From a virus: a stretch of 27,353 nucleotides of DNA. A program made the translations under genes and the position numbers. The stretch's first letter is position 1, and each line of letters begins with the position of its first letter. This document shows positions 1,555-27,353 of this stretch, in pieces. A model generated the notes under the pieces. The model was not told the origin of the DNA, did not search any database, and was given only the letters and a program-made list of their open reading frames with translations. Location of the stretch: the IMG/VR virus record IMGVR_UViG_3300017951_000093, positions 1 to 27,353 of that record. One strand, 5' to 3'.

Positions 1555-4500
1555 ATGAACGAGGACTTTAACAAAATCATCGACCAGTATAGATCTGAGG
1601 GTCGTGACGATAGATATATAGCGAGAAAGATTTTCCTTGATGAAAATTTTGCAGGGCAGTTTGAAGAAGCCCTTGGCCTTGTAACCTCGTATAAAAAAAA
1701 AGAAGAAGAAGTTCCAGAAGAAGCTCCCATTCAGAGTTTCACCCCTATTACTTCGGGATTTATTTCGGAAGATACTCCTTCGGATTCTATTTCTCAAGAG
1801 CAACCGTCTGACAATACCCCTATTTCAAGCAGGGTAGACGCTGCTGTTACTATTGATGATATAGGTAAAGAATACTCTGAGCGATATGTCGCCGACAGAG
1901 ACGCTCTTATCCAAAGCATACTCGACACCGACGAGGAGTTTGGCGCCAAGGTCAGTGAAATCAGAGGATCTAACAGATCTGATAAAGAGAAGAACTACCT
2001 CATAGAATCTGAGTTTAGGAGTAGATTCGATGAGAAAAGGCGAGAAATAACAGAGGGGTACAAAGAGGAGATCCTGAATAGACTTCCTGAGGGTACGAAC
2101 CTCGAAGATGCAGCTGACAAGCTGTATATGGACTACAACCTTGCCATTCCTCTTGATGACGATAGGGCATACAATGAGGGTTATGGTGGTATCGTTGGGA
2201 TGCTTTCTGATGCCGCCGTCGATCTTGGGGCTTCCTTTGCATCAATCGGAAGCAGTATTGCTGCTTATAGTGCAATGGCGTTTCTCCCTAGCGGATCATT
2301 GCGTGACAGGTTAAACTTTGCTACCACAATTAAAAACTCTGCGCAACAAGGCATTGATGAGTTTAGTAGGATAAGCACTACTCAATACGATCAGGGCATC
2401 GGGGAGTCGTTTTCAAATGGGGATATTGGAGAAGGTCTTACTCGGTTTGTGAGGGCCGCAGCGCAGAGCGCCCCATATATTCTTTCATACGCTACTGGAG
2501 GGGGAACTTTTACTGGTGTTATAGCTGCTTCTGATACATACATGAGATCTCGTGCTCAAGACGCTGAGAGAGTCAAAAACGGTCTTGACCCAGTCTACGA
2601 CTTAGACAGTCCTAGTGGTGAGCTTGCTAGAACTGGCGCTGCAGTAATTGACGGGGCTATAACTGGTGTATCTGGAGGTCTCCAGCACAGGATTTTGACG
2701 ACATCTATGAAGCGTCTTATAGCCAATCCAGCTACTACACAGACTGCCGCTCAAGCTTTCAGGGGGTACTTGACAAAGCAAGGTATTGACATTAGCCTTG
2801 AGGGGGCGACCGAAGCCGTACAGGAGTTGGCTAACATGGGCTATGAGGATATTGTTGCTGGCAATAACTATAGCTCTGAAGAGTACATGAGTAGGGCTAT
2901 GGAGGCGTTTATAACAGGACTTGGTAGTTCTGCGGTTATTGCGGCTCCAGGTGGCGCGTATGAGGGAATAAGGGCTGGAAGAGAGTTGATTACGGGGCCT
3001 CAGGCGGCGGCAAACTCAAGGGTTGAGTCTGCAGGTAAAGATGCAGATATTTCAAGCCTTAATGCTAGTCAAGACGTAAGCAATCTCGTTAGCACTTTTG
3101 AAACAGATAGGGCTGCAGACTCTAAGAACAGAGAGGCTTTTTACACTATGATGGCTGTACGCCATCCTATAGACATGGATCGAATCAAACAGCTCGATCT
3201 CGCTTTGGAACAAACGGTTATAGAATATAGAAAGGTTGAGGCCGCTGGAGGAGACTTAGAGGCTATCAAAGCCAAAATGCTCGATATAGTCAAGCAGAGA
3301 AATTCGATAACAGACTCCCATTCTGGGGAGAGCACCACTCTTACTACTGAAGAAGTGCGGACTGTAGAGGATGGTAAGATTTCCAATGCTCTCGACAACT
3401 TGAGCTCGGACGTCGAAATTACTTCTGAGTCTGTTTCTTCGCAGGAGGAGTACCTTGGTACTGAAGGTTTTGATCAAGGTGCATACGATGACGCTATACA
3501 AGCTAGGGATGCCGCTATCGACAGAAAGAAGGAAGCTCTAAGGCTTGTAGGTGAACTTGGGAGAGCAAGGAAAGAGGCTGATGAAGCAAAAAGAGCAGCA
3601 GCCACTCAAGCGGCTGATATCTCTGGTGTGGAGGAAGCTTCAAGAAAAGAATACGAAGCAGAGCAAAACCTGAGGTTGCACCTTGGTATGCAGATCATTC
3701 CCGAAGGGAAAGTAGAAAGCGCTCCTGAACAAACTCAAAAATATTCTGCTGGAAAGCAGCTGGAAGCACATACAGCAAACGGAGGAAGTACGTTTACTCT
3801 GGATGGTAGGGACATGATTGGTCAACCTAAAGCCAGCGTAAGCATCTTCCCAGAGAGGAGCAAGCTTGTCGAGGGTAGAGAGATTACGAATGAAGATCTT
3901 GAATCGTTTGTAGAAGAAAACAAAGACCTTTTTGAAGGTAATGAGGATGTCCTTGCTGTAGGCACTTGGTTTGACGAAGAGTCTGGTCAAACGTACATAG
4001 ATGTCATTGCTGTCCTTGACAAGAAGACTGCAGAAAACCTTGGTAGGGAGTATAATCAAAAAGCGGTTTTCGATCTCGAAACTCTAGAGGAAATAGATAC
4101 TGGAGGTAGTGGCGAAGCTGTCGCGGATCTTAAACCAGAGGTAGATAGGGTGACAGACATAAGGTCTCTGCTAACACCCAAGGAGGCCAAGCCTATAGAG
4201 CCAGTAACTCCAGAAGTAAGAAAAGAAACCCCATCAGAAGTTAGGGGTATTGAAGGGCAATTTACAGAGTACACCCGTCAGAAAGATGGTAGTATTGGGG
4301 TTTTGTCCAAGGGGCCCTTGCTGGCTAAGTATGCTAGGTTCATAAACAAAAAGCTGGCTAACACGCTCAGAGCAAACTTCGGTGACAACTTTAAGATTGT
4401 TGTCCATGACACTGCTGAGTCAGGAGATAAAGCAGATAGAATTGGAGAGACTCAAAAGCTTGGTCATGCAGTTATAAATACGGATGGGTCGGTAGAGATA

Positions 4501-7500
4501 CACATCAACCCAGCAAGATTTGCAGAGGCTGCTGCTGCTGGAAAGGATCCCATGGCTGTTCTTGTCGAGGAAGTCTTTCATGTAACCTTGTCGCCTTCTC
4601 TAGCTAAACTGTATAGGACGAACAAGCCAGTCCTGGATGACCTGTTGAGTCAGATGGAGGGCATTGCTAAAGCCACTGGTAATGCAGACCTCATAGCTGA
4701 GGTGGAGGCAAAAAAGAAAGCTTACGAGGCCGCTGGAGCAAAGGAAGGGGAGGTAATAGACGAGGCTTTGGCTGAGTATGTGGCTGAAATGCTCAACTAC
4801 GGATATGAGCCTAAGTTGATGGATAAAATCAGGGTTATCCTGAACAAGATCCAAAAGGCCGTATCAGGAAAAGACGCTATTGTAATATCTGATCTCAGTA
4901 GTGCTCAGAACATTATAGATGCGTTTAGTTCTATGGTGCGGGATGGGAGTGCTGTCGTGGTTGCAGACAATGTAGTTGACAAGACCACCGAAAGATCAGC
5001 GTTATCTCCCTCTAAGCTTCCAGAGAATGAGTTCTTTAGAGTCGCTTACTGGCAACCAAGCTATGCGCTAAGAGGCGAAACTGTTGGTATAGAGGGTCCG
5101 AGCAAGTGGAGAGAAAAAGAGTTTGCTGGTAAGTGGCACTTTATAAACTGGTGGAAAGAGGCTACCAAAATGGGTAAGCTGAATTTCACTGGATGGGAGG
5201 TTAGTTATGTTGATGGAACAAAAGAGCCGCTTGACGCCAATATCATGCGCAAGTGGAAGATGAAGCCTCCAGTGAACAAGAAGGTTCAAGAAAGAGAGGC
5301 GATTAGGAAAAAGCAAATTATGACCCCTAAGCTAATCTCATTCATCAACGATTCCAGACTGGAGGATGAAAGAGTTAGGGGTGTAGAATACTATCTAAAC
5401 CGATCTAACGTAGGATGGTCTTATAAGATCGCTATCGACGAGTTCATGAACTTCACAACTGAAGAGCAGAACAAACAGATAGAAAAGATTCTAGAGGGTA
5501 CTGATCCATCAAATCCTGTAAAAAATACTTCAGAGTATAGACAGATATTTGATGAAGTAGCTACGTACAATGATGTCTCCATGCTGTTTGATGTCATGGA
5601 GAGAAAATACGGGAAGGAGTCTGGTGTAGACCCGATAGAGAGGTCCGCCATAAACAGCCTGTACAAATTCCTGGATAACGAAAGCGCACAAGAGGATTTT
5701 CAAAGAAGGCTTGACGAGAAAGAAAGAGCCATATGTGGCATTGGTGGAAGAACTTGCTCTACAAATGATAAGGTGAGTCTGCTTCAGTACGAGTCTCACA
5801 TGGTCAAGTCCCAAATCGGGGATAACCCCTCTATGGTAGAGAGTGTAAGGTATGCCACAGAGTCTCTCGAAGTTGCTGATAACCACTTGCGCAAACAAGG
5901 GTTTGATGTGACGAAGGTCAAAGAGAATTATGATGAAGGAAAAGAAGTGTTCTTTTCTAGACTTGACTCAGATCCAGAGGTGAAGATAGATCCCAGACAA
6001 TACGATTGGTTGTATGACGTAATACTTTCGTACACATCAAACGGATCTCAGATCGACCCGAATATCACGCTTGCAAACAGCATATTCAGAAACGGGTTGA
6101 TTGCTGTACAAACGGGGTCGACTGACTTCATACCAAAGAGTAGGATAGAAGGGATCGCCAAGATGGAGTCAGAGTCGACGCTTGGTTCAGTTACAGGCCA
6201 AAGGGCTTCTGTTATTGCTAGACATTTGTCTGACATAAACTCCTTATATAACGAGTATGTGATGGACAGATTCGCATTCTTCAGAGACATGAAGAAGCGA
6301 GATAAAAATGGAGTTCCTGAATTGGCTAAAAGAATCGGGAAGAACACCGTAAAGCTTGCAGAGCTAACTCTTGGAAACATGGGTGATCCAGAGGCTATAC
6401 CAATGGATAGCAATATGAAGGATCAGTTCAACATATACAGGGGTAAGTTCGATCTGACCGACTATTCCGAGGGGCTTGTTATACCAGAGGCTGTCCGCAC
6501 AAACGTCATATCCAGAATGAGGTCTCTAGGTAGAGATGTGAATTCAGCGATGACTGACGCAGAGATATTCGACGAGATAAGAAAGATGAAGGCTAGTGGC
6601 GATAACGCCTTGATAGCCAGAGGTAAGGAGTTTTACGCCCAACTGGTCGGAAATAACATAGTTCAGCTAAGAGACTTCTCAGCTGAAGAGATACGCGAAG
6701 CGCAGAGATTTGTAAGGTCTGTAGCAAAGAATTTGGGGATCACACCATTCCAAGCTCAACAGCTTATGTATATAGACGGTATCCACACTTGGAATTTGTA
6801 CAAGAAGGGTGAGTTCATGGTGAGTGATTACAAGTCGGCTCAAGAAAGAAACCTCGATGTCGACATCACCGCCCCGATCGAAAGGTCCGCACTGACGCCT
6901 CCAGGAACTCAGCTAGATCTGTTTAGCGAGGAGATCCCTATCGAATCTACGCGATTCCCACTTCCTGGTCGTAGAATGGTGGGAGCTGCTAAAGACGGCA
7001 ACGCTATTGATAACGAGCTGTATAGAGAAAGGAATACTGAAGTTGGAACTAAAGTGAGGGTAAGAGGCCAAGAGGTAAACCTTACTCAAGAAGCTGTTGA
7101 TAATGCGCTTTCTACAGACGCTACTTCAAGAAGAATTATAGGTAAAGAGATTCAAATTACTGAAGGTCAAAGAGTTGGGGTTAGACTAAACCTCAACGTC
7201 ATGAAGAACACGGGGGTTCCAGTACAAACCCTGCACGACAAGACAGCTTCAGGAGAAGCGCTGCAATATGCTCCAGCTGTGACTGTTAAGAACGCCGAGC
7301 TGTATGTAAATCAAAACGCCAGAAATAAGATTGTCACATTCCAAGAGAATAAGTTCCCCATGGCTAGTGTTAACGGGGAGTTTGTTGCTTCTGGAACCGA
7401 TCTGGACTACAGTGGAGTGAAGGCTGTGTTCAATCCGTTCCGTCACAATGTGTTTGTTGATATGGCTGGAAGGCCAATAAAGACTGCTGAAGAAGCGACC

Positions 7501-10494
7501 ATTGTGGGTGGAAGCGTATACCTGAGAGGTAAGATTGAATATTATGATATGTCAGATCCAGTTCTTGAGTCTGGAAGAATAGAGACTGAAGAGCAGAGGA
7601 ACAAAAGGCTGAAGAGAGGCCCGAAGTACGATAAGGCAATCAACAGATTCATTGGGTACTCCAAGAGTCAGGGGATAGAATATGATAGCAGACAGGAGGC
7701 TGAAGTCGCATACGACAACATGACTATCCCGTCAGAGGTGGCCTTGAACGAGTCGCAGGTTGCAGAGAATATGGCGACAGCCATGGAGAGAGCAGCTATA
7801 GCCAACTTCACAAAGAAAGGTATGCGTATGCGTCAGACGGCTTCTAAAGCCGCTAGAAAGTACACAGACGTAAAAGCTGACATAGTAAACAACCCAGCCA
7901 ACTACATAGTGCCTCAGAAGATAGGGGAGATAAAAGACAGGCTCCAAGACATGACCGACCAGGACCTTGTCGATATCATGACCGACGAGGCTATCGGTAG
8001 ACTATCCCAGAGGAATGACGACATTGGAGTGCTGGCTGGATCTGAAATGATTAGGAGGGCTGTAGCGCGGGGAGAAGTGGAACGCATCCCTGCAATCATT
8101 GCAGAGCTGGCAGCCATGGGGACCACTGCTGGTAGGATACTTAGGCACTTCAGAGAGCTCAAGTCAGCCACACCAGCTGGTCTCGCTGCTACCATTAAGT
8201 CTTCTGTTGAAGCAGCTGGAAACACTCTCACTGAGTCACAAGAAAACCAGCTAAATCAACTCACTCTTGATCTCTTCCAGCAACAATCTATAGTGGAAGA
8301 TTTCATGCGTAGAGCTATAGGGGGTGAGGAAGTTGATTCTGAGCTTGAGGCCGAGGTAAAAAAGCTGAAAGCACTTGAGCGTCAACTAGATACACTTGCA
8401 AACAGGGTTATAGAAAAGGGTTGGGGAGATATCTTTGGTCAACTCATACAGGGCAACTTGTTGACTACAATGTCTCAGGCCTTGAACGTGGCGGCCAACA
8501 TGGTTAATGCGGTAGGCAATGTGGCTGTAGGAACGATCTCTCTACCTGTTGAGGCTGCATACGTCAAGGTTGGTAACATCTTGGGTAAGAACCTTGAGAT
8601 GCGAAGACGGCCTAGCTTGATGGCATATATGTATGCTGTAAGAAAGTTCGGGGAAGGGTTTGTTGAGTCATCTGATACGTTTATGACTGGTCAGGAAAAG
8701 GATGTCTCCGAATGGAGAGTCAACAGAGGTTTGGCCCCATTCAGATCTTTCTTGGCGGCTTGGAACAAGGACCTCCCAATGGGTCCTGACGGAAAAGGAA
8801 GTGCTTCGCAAAGGGCTAAGTTGTTTGTTCAGGGAACGCTCGGCATACCAGCAGAGGTCATGTTCAGGATGCTGTCTTTTGGGGACATTCCTTTCAGAAG
8901 ATACGCAGAAGGTTTGTACCTGTATCAGACTGGACTCAACATGGGCCTTGAGGGTGAAGCTTTGGCTAGGTTCCTGAAGTACCCAACCAAAGAGCAATTA
9001 TCTAAAGCTCAGGTTGAGGGAAGGAAATTGACCTTCCAAGAAGAGACCATTGCAAGCAGGACGACCAACCGAGTAATCTCGACCATGGAGAGGGTTACGG
9101 CTGAAGCTTTGGATGCTATTCCAGGAGTCAATGGCACTGTATTCGCTAAGAGTCTGTTTAGGGCTATGGTTCCGTTTAGGTCTACTCCTGCCAACATACT
9201 TTACGAAACGTTTACTTGGGTCAACCCTTACGTTGGTATCGTAAAGATGTCGGGTGAGATTAGCAAGGGTAATACGGAAGAGGCCTCGAAGACGATGGCT
9301 AAGATGATGCTGGGGGCTGTAACCATGGAGGCGGCCATCATGATGATTAAAGAGGGTATTATCTCTGGTGCGATTCAGTGGGATGAAGACGAAGAGAGAA
9401 ACATAGCTTATGATGTATTCCCTCCGACCAGCATTAATGTTTCAGCCCTTGATAGGCTTATCAAAGGTGAGGATCCATCAAAGCAAAAAGACGATAGATT
9501 CGTTAAGTACGACAAGCTCGGAATGATTGGAGCCATCCTTGCTACGTCTGTCCAATCTGTCGATATGAGCGATGTCTCTGATATCAAATCAGATAAATAC
9601 AGCGGCCCAATAGACTTCTTTACTGATGCCGTTACTGGTTTCTTTGGCTTGAACTCGTTTGCCGCAGTGTCTACTATGATGGAACAGAGCTTTGTGCAGG
9701 GATTGAATGGATTCCTGAAGGTGCTGACTGGAGACGATGTAGAGCGCAATATGGAGAACCTTGTGAACTCCCTGTTCCAGGCTGGTAGTGCAGCTGTTCT
9801 CCCGAACCAAATGAGCGCGTTCTATCGCGCTGAAAGAGAATTCTTGCCCGATACCAGAACCACGAAGGATATGAGCACCACGGAGCGAATCCTCAAGAAG
9901 TTCGAGTACACCATCAAGGATAGAACTTTCGGTCTGGCTGATCATCCGATTCGTATCAATTGGAAGGGTGAACCTATCTCTCAGACGCCAAGGGGGGCAG
10001 GGTCGATTGCATATCAGTTGTTCGATATCACCAAGTCCAGACAGGGCACGGCAGATCCGCTTTCAAATGAAATCTGGAGGCTGTACGAACAGACTGAAGA
10101 CCTTACCGACTTGTGTGGAACCCCATCCTATGCGGCTAAGAGATCGCTTAATGTCCCAGACATAAAGAGCAAGAGGGAGCTGAAAGCGGCTCAAGCAATA
10201 GGAAAAAGATACACGTGGATGGACGACGATGAGTTCATGTCTGAGCGCGTATACCTGAACGTCGAACAGATAAACAGACTCATGGAGGCAGCTGGAAAGC
10301 AGAGATACAGAGATGCGGCTGAGGTGATTCAGGGTCAGGATTATCAGAGGGCATCCGATGAAAAGAGGGTTGAGATGCTGAACGATGTCGCAGAGAAGTA
10401 CGCTAGTTCAAAATCCTATGAGGACGGAAGGTTCATGAACCACACTGTGGTCTTGTTCGACATCCTTCAAGAAATCTACGATGGCAGAGAATAA
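1555..10494 (+). CDS. Giant polyvalent virion protein, probable ejected internal protein, 2979 aa
   Basis: This is the largest gene, 2,979 residues, in the virion module just before the holin-like gene. Visible architecture, by approximate residue: a short helical N-domain (1-45); an acidic/Ser-Pro linker; Gly/Ala-rich hydrophobic segments (210-475) including EGATEAVQEL; coiled-coil stretches (540-710); a small alpha/beta domain with VGTW...LGRE...KAVFDL (760-850); a zincin-like region with EEVFH at 1005-1009 and DEALAE at 1069-1074; a long helical part (1230-1770) with a weak resemblance to phage HhH-glycosylase-like domains; a beta-rich region (1785-1990); and a long C-terminal region (2290-2979) with amphipathic/hydrophobic helices such as GNLLTTMSQALNVAANMV. 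Such multi-domain chains match the large polyvalent proteins of phages, in which the C-terminal helical parts resemble the LPD families. They are thought to be packaged and delivered with DNA. Delivery and enzyme functions here are inferred. The motif ERSA recurs at 1146, 1362 and 1776. Confidence 0.75.
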   Translation: MNEDFNKIIDQYRSEGRDDRYIARKIFLDENFAGQFEEALGLVTSYKKKEEEVPEEAPIQSFTPITSGFISEDTPSDSISQEQPSDNTPISSRVDAAVTIDDIGKEYSERYVADRDALIQSILDTDEEFGAKVSEIRGSNRSDKEKNYLIESEFRSRFDEKRREITEGYKEEILNRLPEGTNLEDAADKLYMDYNLAIPLDDDRAYNEGYGGIVGMLSDAAVDLGASFASIGSSIAAYSAMAFLPSGSLRDRLNFATTIKNSAQQGIDEFSRISTTQYDQGIGESFSNGDIGEGLTRFVRAAAQSAPYILSYATGGGTFTGVIAASDTYMRSRAQDAERVKNGLDPVYDLDSPSGELARTGAAVIDGAITGVSGGLQHRILTTSMKRLIANPATTQTAAQAFRGYLTKQGIDISLEGATEAVQELANMGYEDIVAGNNYSSEEYMSRAMEAFITGLGSSAVIAAPGGAYEGIRAGRELITGPQAAANSRVESAGKDADISSLNASQDVSNLVSTFETDRAADSKNREAFYTMMAVRHPIDMDRIKQLDLALEQTVIEYRKVEAAGGDLEAIKAKMLDIVKQRNSITDSHSGESTTLTTEEVRTVEDGKISNALDNLSSDVEITSESVSSQEEYLGTEGFDQGAYDDAIQARDAAIDRKKEALRLVGELGRARKEADEAKRAAATQAADISGVEEASRKEYEAEQNLRLHLGMQIIPEGKVESAPEQTQKYSAGKQLEAHTANGGSTFTLDGRDMIGQPKASVSIFPERSKLVEGREITNEDLESFVEENKDLFEGNEDVLAVGTWFDEESGQTYIDVIAVLDKKTAENLGREYNQKAVFDLETLEEIDTGGSGEAVADLKPEVDRVTDIRSLLTPKEAKPIEPVTPEVRKETPSEVRGIEGQFTEYTRQKDGSIGVLSKGPLLAKYARFINKKLANTLRANFGDNFKIVVHDTAESGDKADRIGETQKLGHAVINTDGSVEIHINPARFAEAAAAGKDPMAVLVEEVFHVTLSPSLAKLYRTNKPVLDDLLSQMEGIAKATGNADLIAEVEAKKKAYEAAGAKEGEVIDEALAEYVAEMLNYGYEPKLMDKIRVILNKIQKAVSGKDAIVISDLSSAQNIIDAFSSMVRDGSAVVVADNVVDKTTERSALSPSKLPENEFFRVAYWQPSYALRGETVGIEGPSKWREKEFAGKWHFINWWKEATKMGKLNFTGWEVSYVDGTKEPLDANIMRKWKMKPPVNKKVQEREAIRKKQIMTPKLISFINDSRLEDERVRGVEYYLNRSNVGWSYKIAIDEFMNFTTEEQNKQIEKILEGTDPSNPVKNTSEYRQIFDEVATYNDVSMLFDVMERKYGKESGVDPIERSAINSLYKFLDNESAQEDFQRRLDEKERAICGIGGRTCSTNDKVSLLQYESHMVKSQIGDNPSMVESVRYATESLEVADNHLRKQGFDVTKVKENYDEGKEVFFSRLDSDPEVKIDPRQYDWLYDVILSYTSNGSQIDPNITLANSIFRNGLIAVQTGSTDFIPKSRIEGIAKMESESTLGSVTGQRASVIARHLSDINSLYNEYVMDRFAFFRDMKKRDKNGVPELAKRIGKNTVKLAELTLGNMGDPEAIPMDSNMKDQFNIYRGKFDLTDYSEGLVIPEAVRTNVISRMRSLGRDVNSAMTDAEIFDEIRKMKASGDNALIARGKEFYAQLVGNNIVQLRDFSAEEIREAQRFVRSVAKNLGITPFQAQQLMYIDGIHTWNLYKKGEFMVSDYKSAQERNLDVDITAPIERSALTPPGTQLDLFSEEIPIESTRFPLPGRRMVGAAKDGNAIDNELYRERNTEVGTKVRVRGQEVNLTQEAVDNALSTDATSRRIIGKEIQITEGQRVGVRLNLNVMKNTGVPVQTLHDKTASGEALQYAPAVTVKNAELYVNQNARNKIVTFQENKFPMASVNGEFVASGTDLDYSGVKAVFNPFRHNVFVDMAGRPIKTAEEATIVGGSVYLRGKIEYYDMSDPVLESGRIETEEQRNKRLKRGPKYDKAINRFIGYSKSQGIEYDSRQEAEVAYDNMTIPSEVALNESQVAENMATAMERAAIANFTKKGMRMRQTASKAARKYTDVKADIVNNPANYIVPQKIGEIKDRLQDMTDQDLVDIMTDEAIGRLSQRNDDIGVLAGSEMIRRAVARGEVERIPAIIAELAAMGTTAGRILRHFRELKSATPAGLAATIKSSVEAAGNTLTESQENQLNQLTLDLFQQQSIVEDFMRRAIGGEEVDSELEAEVKKLKALERQLDTLANRVIEKGWGDIFGQLIQGNLLTTMSQALNVAANMVNAVGNVAVGTISLPVEAAYVKVGNILGKNLEMRRRPSLMAYMYAVRKFGEGFVESSDTFMTGQEKDVSEWRVNRGLAPFRSFLAAWNKDLPMGPDGKGSASQRAKLFVQGTLGIPAEVMFRMLSFGDIPFRRYAEGLYLYQTGLNMGLEGEALARFLKYPTKEQLSKAQVEGRKLTFQEETIASRTTNRVISTMERVTAEALDAIPGVNGTVFAKSLFRAMVPFRSTPANILYETFTWVNPYVGIVKMSGEISKGNTEEASKTMAKMMLGAVTMEAAIMMIKEGIISGAIQWDEDEERNIAYDVFPPTSINVSALDRLIKGEDPSKQKDDRFVKYDKLGMIGAILATSVQSVDMSDVSDIKSDKYSGPIDFFTDAVTGFFGLNSFAAVSTMMEQSFVQGLNGFLKVLTGDDVERNMENLVNSLFQAGSAAVLPNQMSAFYRAEREFLPDTRTTKDMSTTERILKKFEYTIKDRTFGLADHPIRINWKGEPISQTPRGAGSIAYQLFDITKSRQGTADPLSNEIWRLYEQTEDLTDLCGTPSYAAKRSLNVPDIKSKRELKAAQAIGKRYTWMDDDEFMSERVYLNVEQINRLMEAAGKQRYRDAAEVIQGQDYQRASDEKRVEMLNDVAEKYASSKSYEDGRFMNHTVVLFDILQEIYDGRE

Positions 10495-22441: not shown

Positions 22442-22741
22442 TTACTTGTTCTTGAGGTATTCTGCCGTCTCGTTGAGGTTCTTGTGCATAGTCTTCTTAG
22501 CTTCGATTTCGACCATCTTCTCGCCCATGACCCATCCGAAGATGAACTCCGCAAGGTCTACCCTGAAGTTCTCCATCTCCGTGCCGTCATCTTCGAGCGT
22601 GTCGGTAACGATATGATCGAGTGTGCTCCAGATGTCGTTGAGGAAGTCCTCAGCCTCGTCAATCACATCGGCGATTCGGTTTAACTGCATCCGTTGCCCC
22701 TTGGTGAGGAGGTCTTTTGTGGTTGTTACGTAGTAGCTCAT
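22442..22741 (-). CDS. Hypothetical helical protein, 99 aa
   Basis: The frame is open to 22834, but the first 31 codons would run through the tRNA-like minihelix. The ATG at 22741 (MSYYVTTTKDLLTKGQRMQL) directly follows the recurring leader AAACACTCACAGACATG and is the clear start. The protein is acidic and helical (ADVIDEAEDFLNDIWSTLDH; VDLAEFIFGWVMGEKMVEIE) and ends in a Lys/Asn-rich tail. No recognised family. It is the first gene after the 300-base structured-RNA locus, so its transcript may carry or be processed from that RNA. Confidence 0.68.
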   Translation of the reverse strand: MSYYVTTTKDLLTKGQRMQLNRIADVIDEAEDFLNDIWSTLDHIVTDTLEDDGTEMENFRVDLAEFIFGWVMGEKMVEIEAKKTMHKNLNETAEYLKNK

Positions 22742-22763: not shown

Positions 22764-22807
22764 TGGTGATGCGGGAGGGAATCGAACCCCCATAAACCAT
22801 TCGCATC
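22764..22807 (-). ncRNA. tRNA-like minihelix A (acceptor + T arm, encoded CCA, no anticodon arm)
   Basis: On the minus strand GATGCGA at the 5' side pairs with CGCATC at the 3' side (6 pairs, then an A/C mismatch). The connector is only about nine bases (ATGGTTTAT). A T arm follows (GGGGG-TTCGATT-CCCTC) with the invariant TTCGA loop. The element ends in discriminator A plus an encoded CCA. There is no D arm and no anticodon arm. Such acceptor/T-arm minihelices are known minimal substrates for RNase P and CCA-related enzymes. It lies 22 bases before the ATG of the 99-residue gene. Its 5' 13 bases and its T-arm/acceptor 3' half are nearly identical to element B at 22972-23032. Confidence 0.55.
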
Positions 22808-22971
22808 AGGTGGTAGGTTTGGCACCTTCGGCACCTACCATGTGAGGAGATTTCGACCTGACCCCATTCGTCGGACACGTCCAGTCGGGGGCTACCTCTC
22901 ACGCCGCTCATCCATGAGGTGTCAGCCTCCGATGAGTGTTGCCCCTCTTTCTGACACGTAGGCAACAGGTG
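22808..22971 (-). ncRNA. Candidate structured RNA between the two tRNA-like elements (pseudoknot plus hairpins)
   Basis: There is no credible coding frame here. On the minus strand TGTTGCC (22961-22967) pairs with GGCAACA (22937-22943), and GTGTCAG (22951-22957), lying in that loop, pairs with CTGACAC (22919-22925). These two perfect 7-base helices make an H-type pseudoknot with loops of 3, 7 and 11 bases. A competing hairpin uses CTCATC/GATGAG and GAGG/CCTC (22907-22936). Downstream are a bulged stem GTGAG(A)G/CCTCAC enclosing CCCC/GGGG, and a perfect 8-base hairpin TGGTAGGT/ACCTACCA (22811-22840). No U-run terminator is seen. The RNA would be released if the flanking tRNA-like elements are processed, which is inference. 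Confidence 0.5.
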
Positions 22972-23032
22972 TGATGCGGGAGGGAATCGAACCCTCCGAC
23001 CCCCAGACACACAAGGGTCAACCATTCGCATC
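22972..23032 (-). tRNA. tRNA-like element B (61 nt, D-armless, irregular anticodon arm)
   Basis: On the minus strand GATGCGA and CCGCATC form the acceptor (6 pairs plus an A/C mismatch), followed after a linker by a GACCC/GGGTC stem enclosing a 12-base loop instead of a normal 7-base anticodon loop. A perfect T arm follows (GAGGG-TTCGATT-CCCTC) and discriminator A. CCA is not encoded. The total length of 61 bases leaves no room for a D arm. Whether it is charged is doubtful, and no anticodon can be assigned. It starts 10 bases after the stop of the 206-residue gene and shares its ends with minihelix A. Confidence 0.4.
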
Positions 23033-23041
23033 ATGAGGGTG

Positions 23042-23662
23042 TCAGCCCTCGAAGTTTACATTCGCTTCAAGCCAGTCACTGAGGTCATCTTTATCCTCCA
23101 CCCCATTCACATGGTTGTCCTGTTCGGCGAGGATGCTGAACCTCTTTTCGAGGTCGATAGTGTGGTCGGTGCGGGTGCGACCCGCCTCTTCCTCTGCTCG
23201 ACCCGCCTCATCCTGCGGATACGGGGATCGACCCTCCTTGTCGAGGTAGTACGTTATCTCATCTTGGTTGCGACCGAACTCGGTGATGGAGGACGGACAT
23301 TGAACACTGTCGTTCTCCGCCATATCCAAGGCACGGGACTTCATGTACTCCACGCGGACCAGGTTCAGGTAGACACATCCGCGTCCGTGGTTGAAGGTCA
23401 TCATCACCCCGTAGGTAGCGGGGTCATGGTCGTGCCGCTCGGCGAGAGCCTGTGCTTCACGCAGGAAGTCCGCCCAGTACGAGTACGCACCCTTAGGGTC
23501 TGTGGGCCCAACCACGATGCTCTCCGCGTCATTGGCGAGGTAGTAGTACCCATAGGATTGCGGGTTGAGCAGGGCATCACAGGTGACGATGTCCTTTCCG
23601 AAGGAGACGGCGCGACCGATGGACTCGGCGAAGGCGCGGGTGTTAGTGTTGTTGTTCATCAT
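23042..23662 (-). CDS. Hypothetical protein, 206 aa
   Basis: The start MMNNNTNTRAFAESIGRAVS follows AAAACACAAGAGCA; the second ATG, one codon later, is equally possible. The first ~130 residues look like a folded alpha/beta domain (GKDIVTCDALLNP; YGYYYLANDAESIVVGPTDP; TFNHGRGCVYLNLVRVEYM), followed by a polar, Glu/Arg-rich linker (PQDEAGRAEEEAGRTRTDH) and an acidic helical tail (DDLSDWLEANVNFEG). The opening AES-x-GR motif is shared with the 164-residue protein at the right end. The function is unknown. It is the last protein gene before the structured-RNA locus. Confidence 0.66.
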   Translation of the reverse strand: MMNNNTNTRAFAESIGRAVSFGKDIVTCDALLNPQSYGYYYLANDAESIVVGPTDPKGAYSYWADFLREAQALAERHDHDPATYGVMMTFNHGRGCVYLNLVRVEYMKSRALDMAENDSVQCPSSITEFGRNQDEITYYLDKEGRSPYPQDEAGRAEEEAGRTRTDHTIDLEKRFSILAEQDNHVNGVEDKDDLSDWLEANVNFEG

Positions 23663-27205: not shown

Positions 27206-27280
27206 GAGACACAGGAGGAATCGAACCTCCGCCTTTCGGACGAGTCACAGCCGTCCAGTTGGCCTCCAGTGTGTGTGTCT
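27206..27280 (-). tRNA. tRNA-His (anticodon GTG), irregular D arm
   Basis: On the minus strand a perfect 7-base acceptor (AGACACA/TGTGTCT), an anticodon stem GACGG/TCGTC with 7-base loop CTGTGAC (T before and A after anticodon GTG at 27246-27248), and a perfect T arm GGAGG-TTCGATT-CCTCC are all present, total 75 bases. Discriminator C agrees with histidine identity. The D arm is poorly formed and U8 is replaced by C. No G is encoded at position -1 (T instead), which bacterial tRNA-His normally has. CCA is not encoded. It lies 22 bases upstream of the first early gene's ATG. Confidence 0.6.
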
Positions 27281-27353
27281 AAAACAGGTTCTGCCTGTTC
27301 CGCAGTTAGGAGCGTCCTCCCTCTGCTATCGGATACAGCCTCCGATGGGACTA
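27281..27353 (-). other. Structured non-coding segment at the right window edge
   Basis: On the minus strand, helices ATCGGA-GGCTGTA-TCCGAT, GCAG...CTGC enclosing GGAG-GACG-CTCC, and AACAGG-CAGAA-CCTGTT followed by TTAG lie directly upstream of the tRNA-His-like gene. No T arm with TTCGA is visible, so it is not a complete tRNA. The last hairpin plus its short T-run could be a weak terminator. The segment CATCGGAGGCTG also occurs in the pseudoknot RNA (overlapping 22,921-22,935 with CATCGGAGGCTGACA). It is cut by the window end. Confidence 0.35.

Follow-up and report, generated by a model that had tools for sequence, protein, structure and literature searches.

In plant mitochondria, t-elements are cut by RNase P and RNase Z, define the ends of mRNAs and rRNAs and are not aminoacylated (PMC11658184). 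With regard to mascRNA, cleavage by RNase P generates the 3′ end of the noncoding RNA ahead of it (MALAT1), the small RNA itself is not charged, and two conserved guanosines together with the T loop let RNase P and RNase Z recognize it (PMC11693755). RNase P binds the stack formed by the acceptor and T stems and measures from the elbow (PMC4919913), and the bacterial enzyme also cleaves model hairpins made of an acceptor and a T arm (PMC11143913). Among phage transcripts, the M3 RNA and the C4 antisense RNA are cut by host RNase P (PMC11143913), and phage T4 makes two small late RNAs of unassigned function, RNAC and RNAD (PMC9697503).

The window analyzed here, i.e., the whole stretch of 27.4 kb (positions 1–27,353 of the IMG/VR virus record IMGVR_UViG_3300017951_000093), carries genes on its minus strand from approximately 11 kb to its end. 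TAnnTTTG promoter-like motifs of the Bacteroidota type are located ahead of several window genes, and Maribacter phage Panino is the closest cultured phage by primase (34% identity); based on these two features, the sequence indicates that the host of the window phage likely belongs to the Bacteroidota. On the plus strand, a gene for a 2979-residue protein (1555–10494), with a single weak PHROGs match, takes up about one-third of the window. The locus of interest is situated on the minus strand between a gene for a 206-aa protein (23042–23662; no PHROGs match) and a gene for a 99-aa protein (22442–22741), and its order in the transcript is element B, module C and element A. This locus was unmatched in collections of phage and plasmid DNA, and a search for relatives with a 159-aa protein returned only two contigs, both already in our set.

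Element B (22972–23032, minus strand) starts 9 nt past the stop codon of the 206-aa gene, and element A (22767–22807, minus strand; 41 nt) is directly followed by a genomic CCA (22764–22766), 22 nt ahead of the start of the 99-aa gene. The coordinates and the strand assigned to both elements in the original prediction were borne out, and the 23-mer GGGTTCGATTCCCTCCCGCATCA that they have in common was found exactly twice, compared to zero expected occurrences. Both share the acceptor GATGCG(A)/(C)CGCATC, an unpaired AUGGUU and a discriminator A. The body of B is a single hairpin (GACCC..GGGUC, with an 8-nt loop) without a D stem, followed by the T arm GAGGG-UUCGAUU-CCCUC, while that of A consists of only 9 nt without a hairpin, with GGGGG-UUCGAUU-CCCUC as its T arm. 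As claimed, B folds around its hairpin, with an energy better than 198 of 200 shuffled sequences (z −3.5); A folds into an acceptor plus T-arm helix. A and B are thus "top halves" of tRNAs, in which the acceptor stem, the T arm and an unpaired GG are present, and the D stem and anticodon arm are missing. In tRNAs, the elbow is formed by the GG on one side and the T loop on the other. Since U-1 is able to pair with A73, the expected cut site in elements of this type is ambiguous by one base. Directly before B, a hairpin (GAGGG-CUGACA-CCCUC; 23035–23050, minus strand) includes the stop codon of the 206-aa gene; it is identical in the related contig G003 and altered in G005. An intrinsic terminator was rejected, as no terminator-like T run was found after A or B and no terminator-like site on the minus strand.

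The 164-base spacer announced between both elements was recovered at 22808–22971 (module C, minus strand). It comprises a GUUGCC..GGCAAC hairpin with the loop GUGUCAG, a hairpin GAGG-CUGACA-CCUC and a 3′ hairpin GGUAGGU..ACCUACC. The "strong helices" attributed to it did not stand in terms of energy, which was similar to that of shuffled sequences (z −0.4), and it is on conservation, not on energy, that we take module C as a real RNA and that the structured RNA between A and B was upheld. In particular, most of module C is the same, base for base, in the window and in G003, where 164 and 165 nt, respectively, separate the flanking elements, and the module is also conserved in the 77 nt available of G005. 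Furthermore, the CUGACA hairpin becomes GGGG-CUGACA-CCCC in G003, with one A-U to G-C compensation. The CUGACA loop is complementary to the GUGUCAG loop of the first hairpin, and these bases make a kissing interaction within module C possible. The same CUGACA loop is also present in the hairpin at 23035–23050, with which GUGUCAG could alternatively kiss. A known Rfam RNA was rejected for the spacer, which gave no Rfam match. The spacer had also been described as free of coding frames; in the window, however, an ATG frame of 98 codons runs through B, the spacer and A. This frame was rejected as a conserved gene because stops and an indel interrupt it in G003.

A and B belong to a set of 25 elements from three sequence families (F1, F2 and F3), distributed over 13 related phage contigs including the window. 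These were obtained by scanning the seven contigs with the 206-aa gene and others fetched by DNA patterns for a T arm plus acceptor pairing. Family F1 (GATGCG..CGCATC) comprises A, B and members in G001, G003, G005, L043 and L060. Family F2 (AGCGCA..TGCGCT) is represented in G001 (twice), G003, G005, G006, G008, L047 and L049, and by a variant (GACACA..TGTGTC) in L058 and G311, while F3 (AG[AG]CACA..TGTG[TC]CT) occurs in the window (27206–27280), G002, G003, G006, L043, L058, L059 and L060. Under a strict definition, 24 non-tRNA matches were found in 475 kb versus a mean of 0.07 in dinucleotide shuffles, a count that is inflated by the pattern-fetched contigs; contigs fetched by protein only (e.g., G002, G003, G006 and G008) were also positive. 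A covariance model (R1) built from 14 F1/F2 members scored the members of both families at 51–62 bits (B, 60.4; A, 54.9), in comparison with less than 22 bits for real tRNAs. With F3 left out of the model, seven of the eight F3 elements still scored above every real tRNA, the one in L060 falling among the tRNA scores. R1 matched 12 of 14 related records and none of 296 genomes of one bacterial phylum, which were searched with stricter filters and in a mode without positive control. Presence in bacterial genomes was also rejected for four exact-pattern matches in GTDB contigs, which have neither the T arm nor the acceptor pairing. The short-type element was absent from the cultured phages scanned, namely phi38:1 (first 40 kb), elemoE 6-9C (first 50 kb) and part of MW202828.1. 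Pattern matches in two large-phage contigs of about 345 kb (L011 and L013) were discarded, since they lie in another structured-looking region where acceptor pairing is absent. This long, apparently noncoding region (L011, 1200–1800; L013, 1900–2500) carries GATGCGAGTGGTT and the T-arm-like GCAGGTTCGAATCCTGT, and gave no Rfam match at the cut-off.

The F3 element of the window (27206–27280, minus strand), a third element of this kind that the original prediction had missed, has the acceptor AGACACA/TGTGTCT, the GG, no D stem, an extended hairpin and the T arm GGAGG-UUCGAUU-CCUCC. ARAGORN calls it tRNA-His(GTG), which is probably a miscall: no Rfam tRNA match was obtained for it at the cut-off, and the F3 elements of related phages share the acceptor and the T arm and have quite different bodies, with a 4-bp hairpin replacing the supposed anticodon arm. 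Directly upstream, a module of three hairpins (module E; 27281–27351, minus strand) abuts both F3 and the contig end, and this module directly precedes F3 in all eight contigs. In seven of these, F3 ends 17–21 nt ahead of the start codon of a directly following gene.

The covariation expected from conserved RNA structures was found in the related phages. In the F1/F2 alignment, both-side changes that keep the pairing were observed in all six acceptor pairs and in three of six T-stem pairs (9 of 12 in all), and 98.2% of the cells were paired versus 83.6% in shuffles and 45–64% in slid registers. The covariation score was 0.64 compared to 0.32 ± 0.03 after shuffling, with none of 500 shuffles reaching the observed value. 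Choosing members by pairing inflates these counts somewhat; A and B, along with the corresponding elements in L003, L005 and L007, were first found via sequence or gene neighborhood, not via pairing. Within F3, the acceptor in L043 shows an A-U to G-C change. The GG and the canonical T loop (UUCGANU) are invariant in the F1/F2 set; elsewhere, the GG is present by search criterion. The acceptor and T-stem stack spans 12–13 base-pair positions. We softened an initial idea of a constant 12-bp stack, since one additional base can be paired in F1 and in the L058-type F2 elements, and since the scanner itself presupposes a 12-nt 3′ strand. For some F2 elements, competing folds are available. The middle of the elements, on the other hand, ranges from 9 nt without a hairpin to a 60-nt hairpin body, and its stems are rebuilt with different bases (GCCC-GCAA-GGGC, ACCC-GAAA-GGGU and GACCC..GGGUC). 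This variability excludes a decoding function and indicates that only the enzyme-recognized part has been kept. A 3′ RCCA, which aids the bacterial RNase P, is absent from most elements (it is present genomically for A), and the real tRNAs of these phages also mostly lack it.

Regarding known RNA classes, ARAGORN called neither A nor B a tRNA, and the Rfam tRNA model (RF00005, 29-bit cut-off) gave no window match at the gathering score, the best weak match (22.5 bits) covering part of the spacer plus A. An ordinary or pseudo tRNA was rejected on these negative results, on the absence of a D stem and of a 7-nt anticodon loop, and on the covarying stems. Similarly, tmRNA and permuted tmRNA were rejected: the match of the Rfam tmRNA model was confined to the T arm of B (17 nt; 11.7 bits versus a cut-off of 47), ARAGORN reported no tmRNA in the scanned records, and G3-U70 is not found in F1 and F2. 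The mascRNA model (RF01684) gave only weak matches of 21.3 and 19.5 bits for A and B, so far below its cut-off of 42.5 bits that mascRNA serves as an analogy and not as a class to which the elements belong. Charging as an alanine or histidine minihelix was also discarded, given that the signatures are absent, with U3-A70 in F1, C3-G70 in F2, A-U, G-U or G-C in F3, and U, A or C at position −1.

The elements have in common the parts recognized by RNase P and RNase Z and little else, which is what leads us to favor, with somewhat more confidence than doubt, a reading of A and B as minimal tRNA-like processing signals in polycistronic transcripts, whose cleavage, stability and timing we infer. 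The tRNA-like nature originally assigned to them agrees with the conserved structures, the covarying acceptor and T stems, and these recognized parts. In such a scheme, the unpaired GG may dock on the T loop to form a tRNA elbow, host RNase P would cut the 5′ end of the elements in a polycistronic (early) transcript, and RNase Z, or 3′ exonucleases, would cut their 3′ end. These cuts would release the preceding mRNA or structured RNA at its 3′ end (module C ahead of A, module E ahead of F3) and also set the 5′ end of whatever follows the element. The excised pieces of 41–61 nt would probably be by-products. Counting against this reading are the 3′ RCCA missing from most elements, the one-base ambiguity at the F1 cut site, the competing folds of some F2 elements, and acceptor sequences that are conserved beyond what pairing requires.

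The principal rival is that the excised mini-RNA is itself the product, i.e., a stable trans-acting tRNA mimic which would, for instance, occupy RNase P, RNase Z, the CCA-adding enzyme or EF-Tu, or act as a decoy for a host defense that targets tRNAs. Several elements are retained per genome, and their acceptors are nearly constant (GATGCG in six of seven F1 elements, AGCGCA in most F2 elements) while the neighboring protein is 65–79% identical to that of the window; this conservation, beyond structural demand, could mean that the small RNA itself matters. Nevertheless, we regard a mimic as unlikely, since the body of the elements varies widely and an ordinary tRNA takes the slot of A in one relative (see below). 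Moreover, an RNA with no anticodon loop is not a decoy for anticodon nucleases, and no charging signature is present, as the G3-U70 of alanine is seen at most as a G-U intermediate, in some F3 elements, and the G-1/C73 of histidine not at all.

The genomic placement bears on a narrower alternative, the one originally proposed, in which A and B form a matched pair and their common ends serve to excise one dedicated phage RNA of 164 nt. Their identical ends in the window, and the conservation of module C in two relatives, always directly after B, are in line with this proposal. However, the slot below the 206-aa gene, which holds B, C and A in the window, contains B, the 165-nt module and a tRNA-Arg, and no A, in G003 (in G005, B and C run up to the contig end). 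A-type elements without module C are present in G001, followed there by module D and tRNA-Arg, and in L060, and F2 elements stand without a partner between two protein genes. In addition, an exact 25-mer found module C in no further viral contig. A dedicated pair is therefore improbable, and each element seems to work on its own as a processing signal, interchangeable with a tRNA. In the remaining contigs, the slot holds module D and tRNA-Arg (G004 and G006), tRNA-Met, module D and tRNA-Arg (G002), or tRNA-Arg only (G007), while L043 shows the order E, F3, D and F1. Modules C, D and E are hence each directly trailed by a tRNA or a tRNA-like element. Module D, a structured RNA of about 130 nt (L003, 1600–1745; L040–L043; L058) with the conserved 3′ part GGGGGAAGTCGTCGAACTGCAGTCGGCGCACAC, immediately precedes tRNA-Arg or an F1 element in several of the phages, changes CTGCAG to GTGCAC in L058 and gave no Rfam match in the records scanned.

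The natural swap after module C, a position held in the window by the minimal A and in G003 by a true tRNA-Arg, is what most strongly suggests to us a role of the elements as cleavage signals, which tRNAs in a transcript also are. By its placement between B and either A or tRNA-Arg, module C would be freed there, and an RNA of about 164 nt around it would arise via two independent signals, either of which a tRNA could replace; its release from the B-C-A order is still plausible. All elements lie on the same strand as the flanking genes, within intergenic gaps and at conserved gene positions, and adjoin structured RNA modules, ordinary tRNAs or protein genes directly. In most cases, F2 elements and B begin 9–12 nt past a stop codon.

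Phage tRNA arrays often decay, and some elements are found among real tRNA-Arg and tRNA-Met genes, so they might be pseudogenes left in a tRNA array. This is refuted as a general explanation and very improbable overall: compensatory change keeps the stems, the GG and the T loop are invariant, lone elements persist between protein genes at conserved positions, and a full tRNA with these ends, which would have spoken against the original prediction, was looked for and not found in the related records. Sites of recombination or gene insertion akin to tRNA att sites are hardly any more credible. tRNA 3′ ends are common integrase targets, and the small genes next to F2 and F1 vary from phage to phage; yet the tRNA-like stack is conserved at both ends, with covariation at the RNA level, and the elements are always in sense with the flanking genes.

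Extending the reading as processing signals, it seems to us an evenly balanced proposition that a phage lineage with probable Bacteroidota hosts evolved a modular RNA-processing code, a counterpart of mitochondrial tRNA punctuation, in which anticodon-less, tRNA-interchangeable cassettes between genes and structured RNAs would let host RNase P and RNase Z cut transcripts into mRNAs and mature RNAs. In the literature searched, outside subscription titles, we found no set of such minimal cassettes from phages; if our reading is true, these would be the first phage set of natural acceptor/T-arm minihelices in that literature to act as transcript punctuation. The t-element/mascRNA principle would thereby reach bacterial viruses, and the elements would reveal the small part of a tRNA that suffices for RNase P in nature. 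They would also account for odd or miscalled tRNA genes in annotated phage genomes and offer a defined route by which structured phage RNAs acquire their ends.

Other unannotated tRNA-like RNAs came to light in cultured phages. Maribacter phage Panino (L056, 4941–5032) and Cellulophaga crAss-like phage phi14:2 (L068, 1698–1788), both from marine Flavobacteriia, carry one that is 84.5% identical over 84 nt and whose D-like hairpin, long arm and T stem show compensatory changes; it is not called a tRNA and is larger than the window-type elements. Given this RNA, part of the idea is testable in laboratory phages. Stretches with a T arm, acceptor pairing and an unusual body also occur within or adjoining tRNA arrays of unrelated phages, namely Vibrio phage 150E35-1 (L070, 1464–1530), Klebsiella phage Sugarland (L069, about 1450–1530) and Sinorhizobium phage Phosso (L071, 762–831).

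Compared with the described systems, the elements resemble the tRNA-like domain of tmRNA in their acceptor, T arm, missing D stem and replaced anticodon arm; that domain consists of an acceptor stem, a T arm, a D loop without a D stem and an insert in place of the anticodon arm. T4 RNAC and RNAD, encoded in the T4 tRNA region, are similar as phage small RNAs, by description only, and are described as late RNAs. Likewise compared by description only, the M3 RNA and the C4 antisense RNA are named as single RNAs, unlike the repeated tRNA-like cassette reported here. Element A is essentially a natural version of the acceptor/T-arm hairpin model substrates of McClain et al. 1987 (PMC11143913), from which the elements differ in being natural and phage-encoded and in having an extra GG-containing strand able to build an elbow. 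With mascRNA and menRNA (of MALAT1 and MEN beta), they share the acceptor stem, the T arm and the two elbow guanosines; mascRNA and menRNA, however, are human nuclear RNAs and retain a small D stem-loop that is absent from the phage elements. Like the plant mitochondrial t-elements, the phage elements are tRNA-like sequences at the 5′ or 3′ ends of genes (PMC11658184), but t-elements are organellar, host-encoded and homologous to real tRNA genes, whereas the phage elements have no tRNA body, form three families, have retained GG and T loop, and are interleaved with structured phage RNAs. Taken together, the family tests exclude tRNA, tmRNA and mascRNA, and the proposed working principle is that of t-elements and mascRNA, as seen in the acceptor and T-stem stack with its T loop, the elbow guanosines and the intergenic sense placement at transcript borders.
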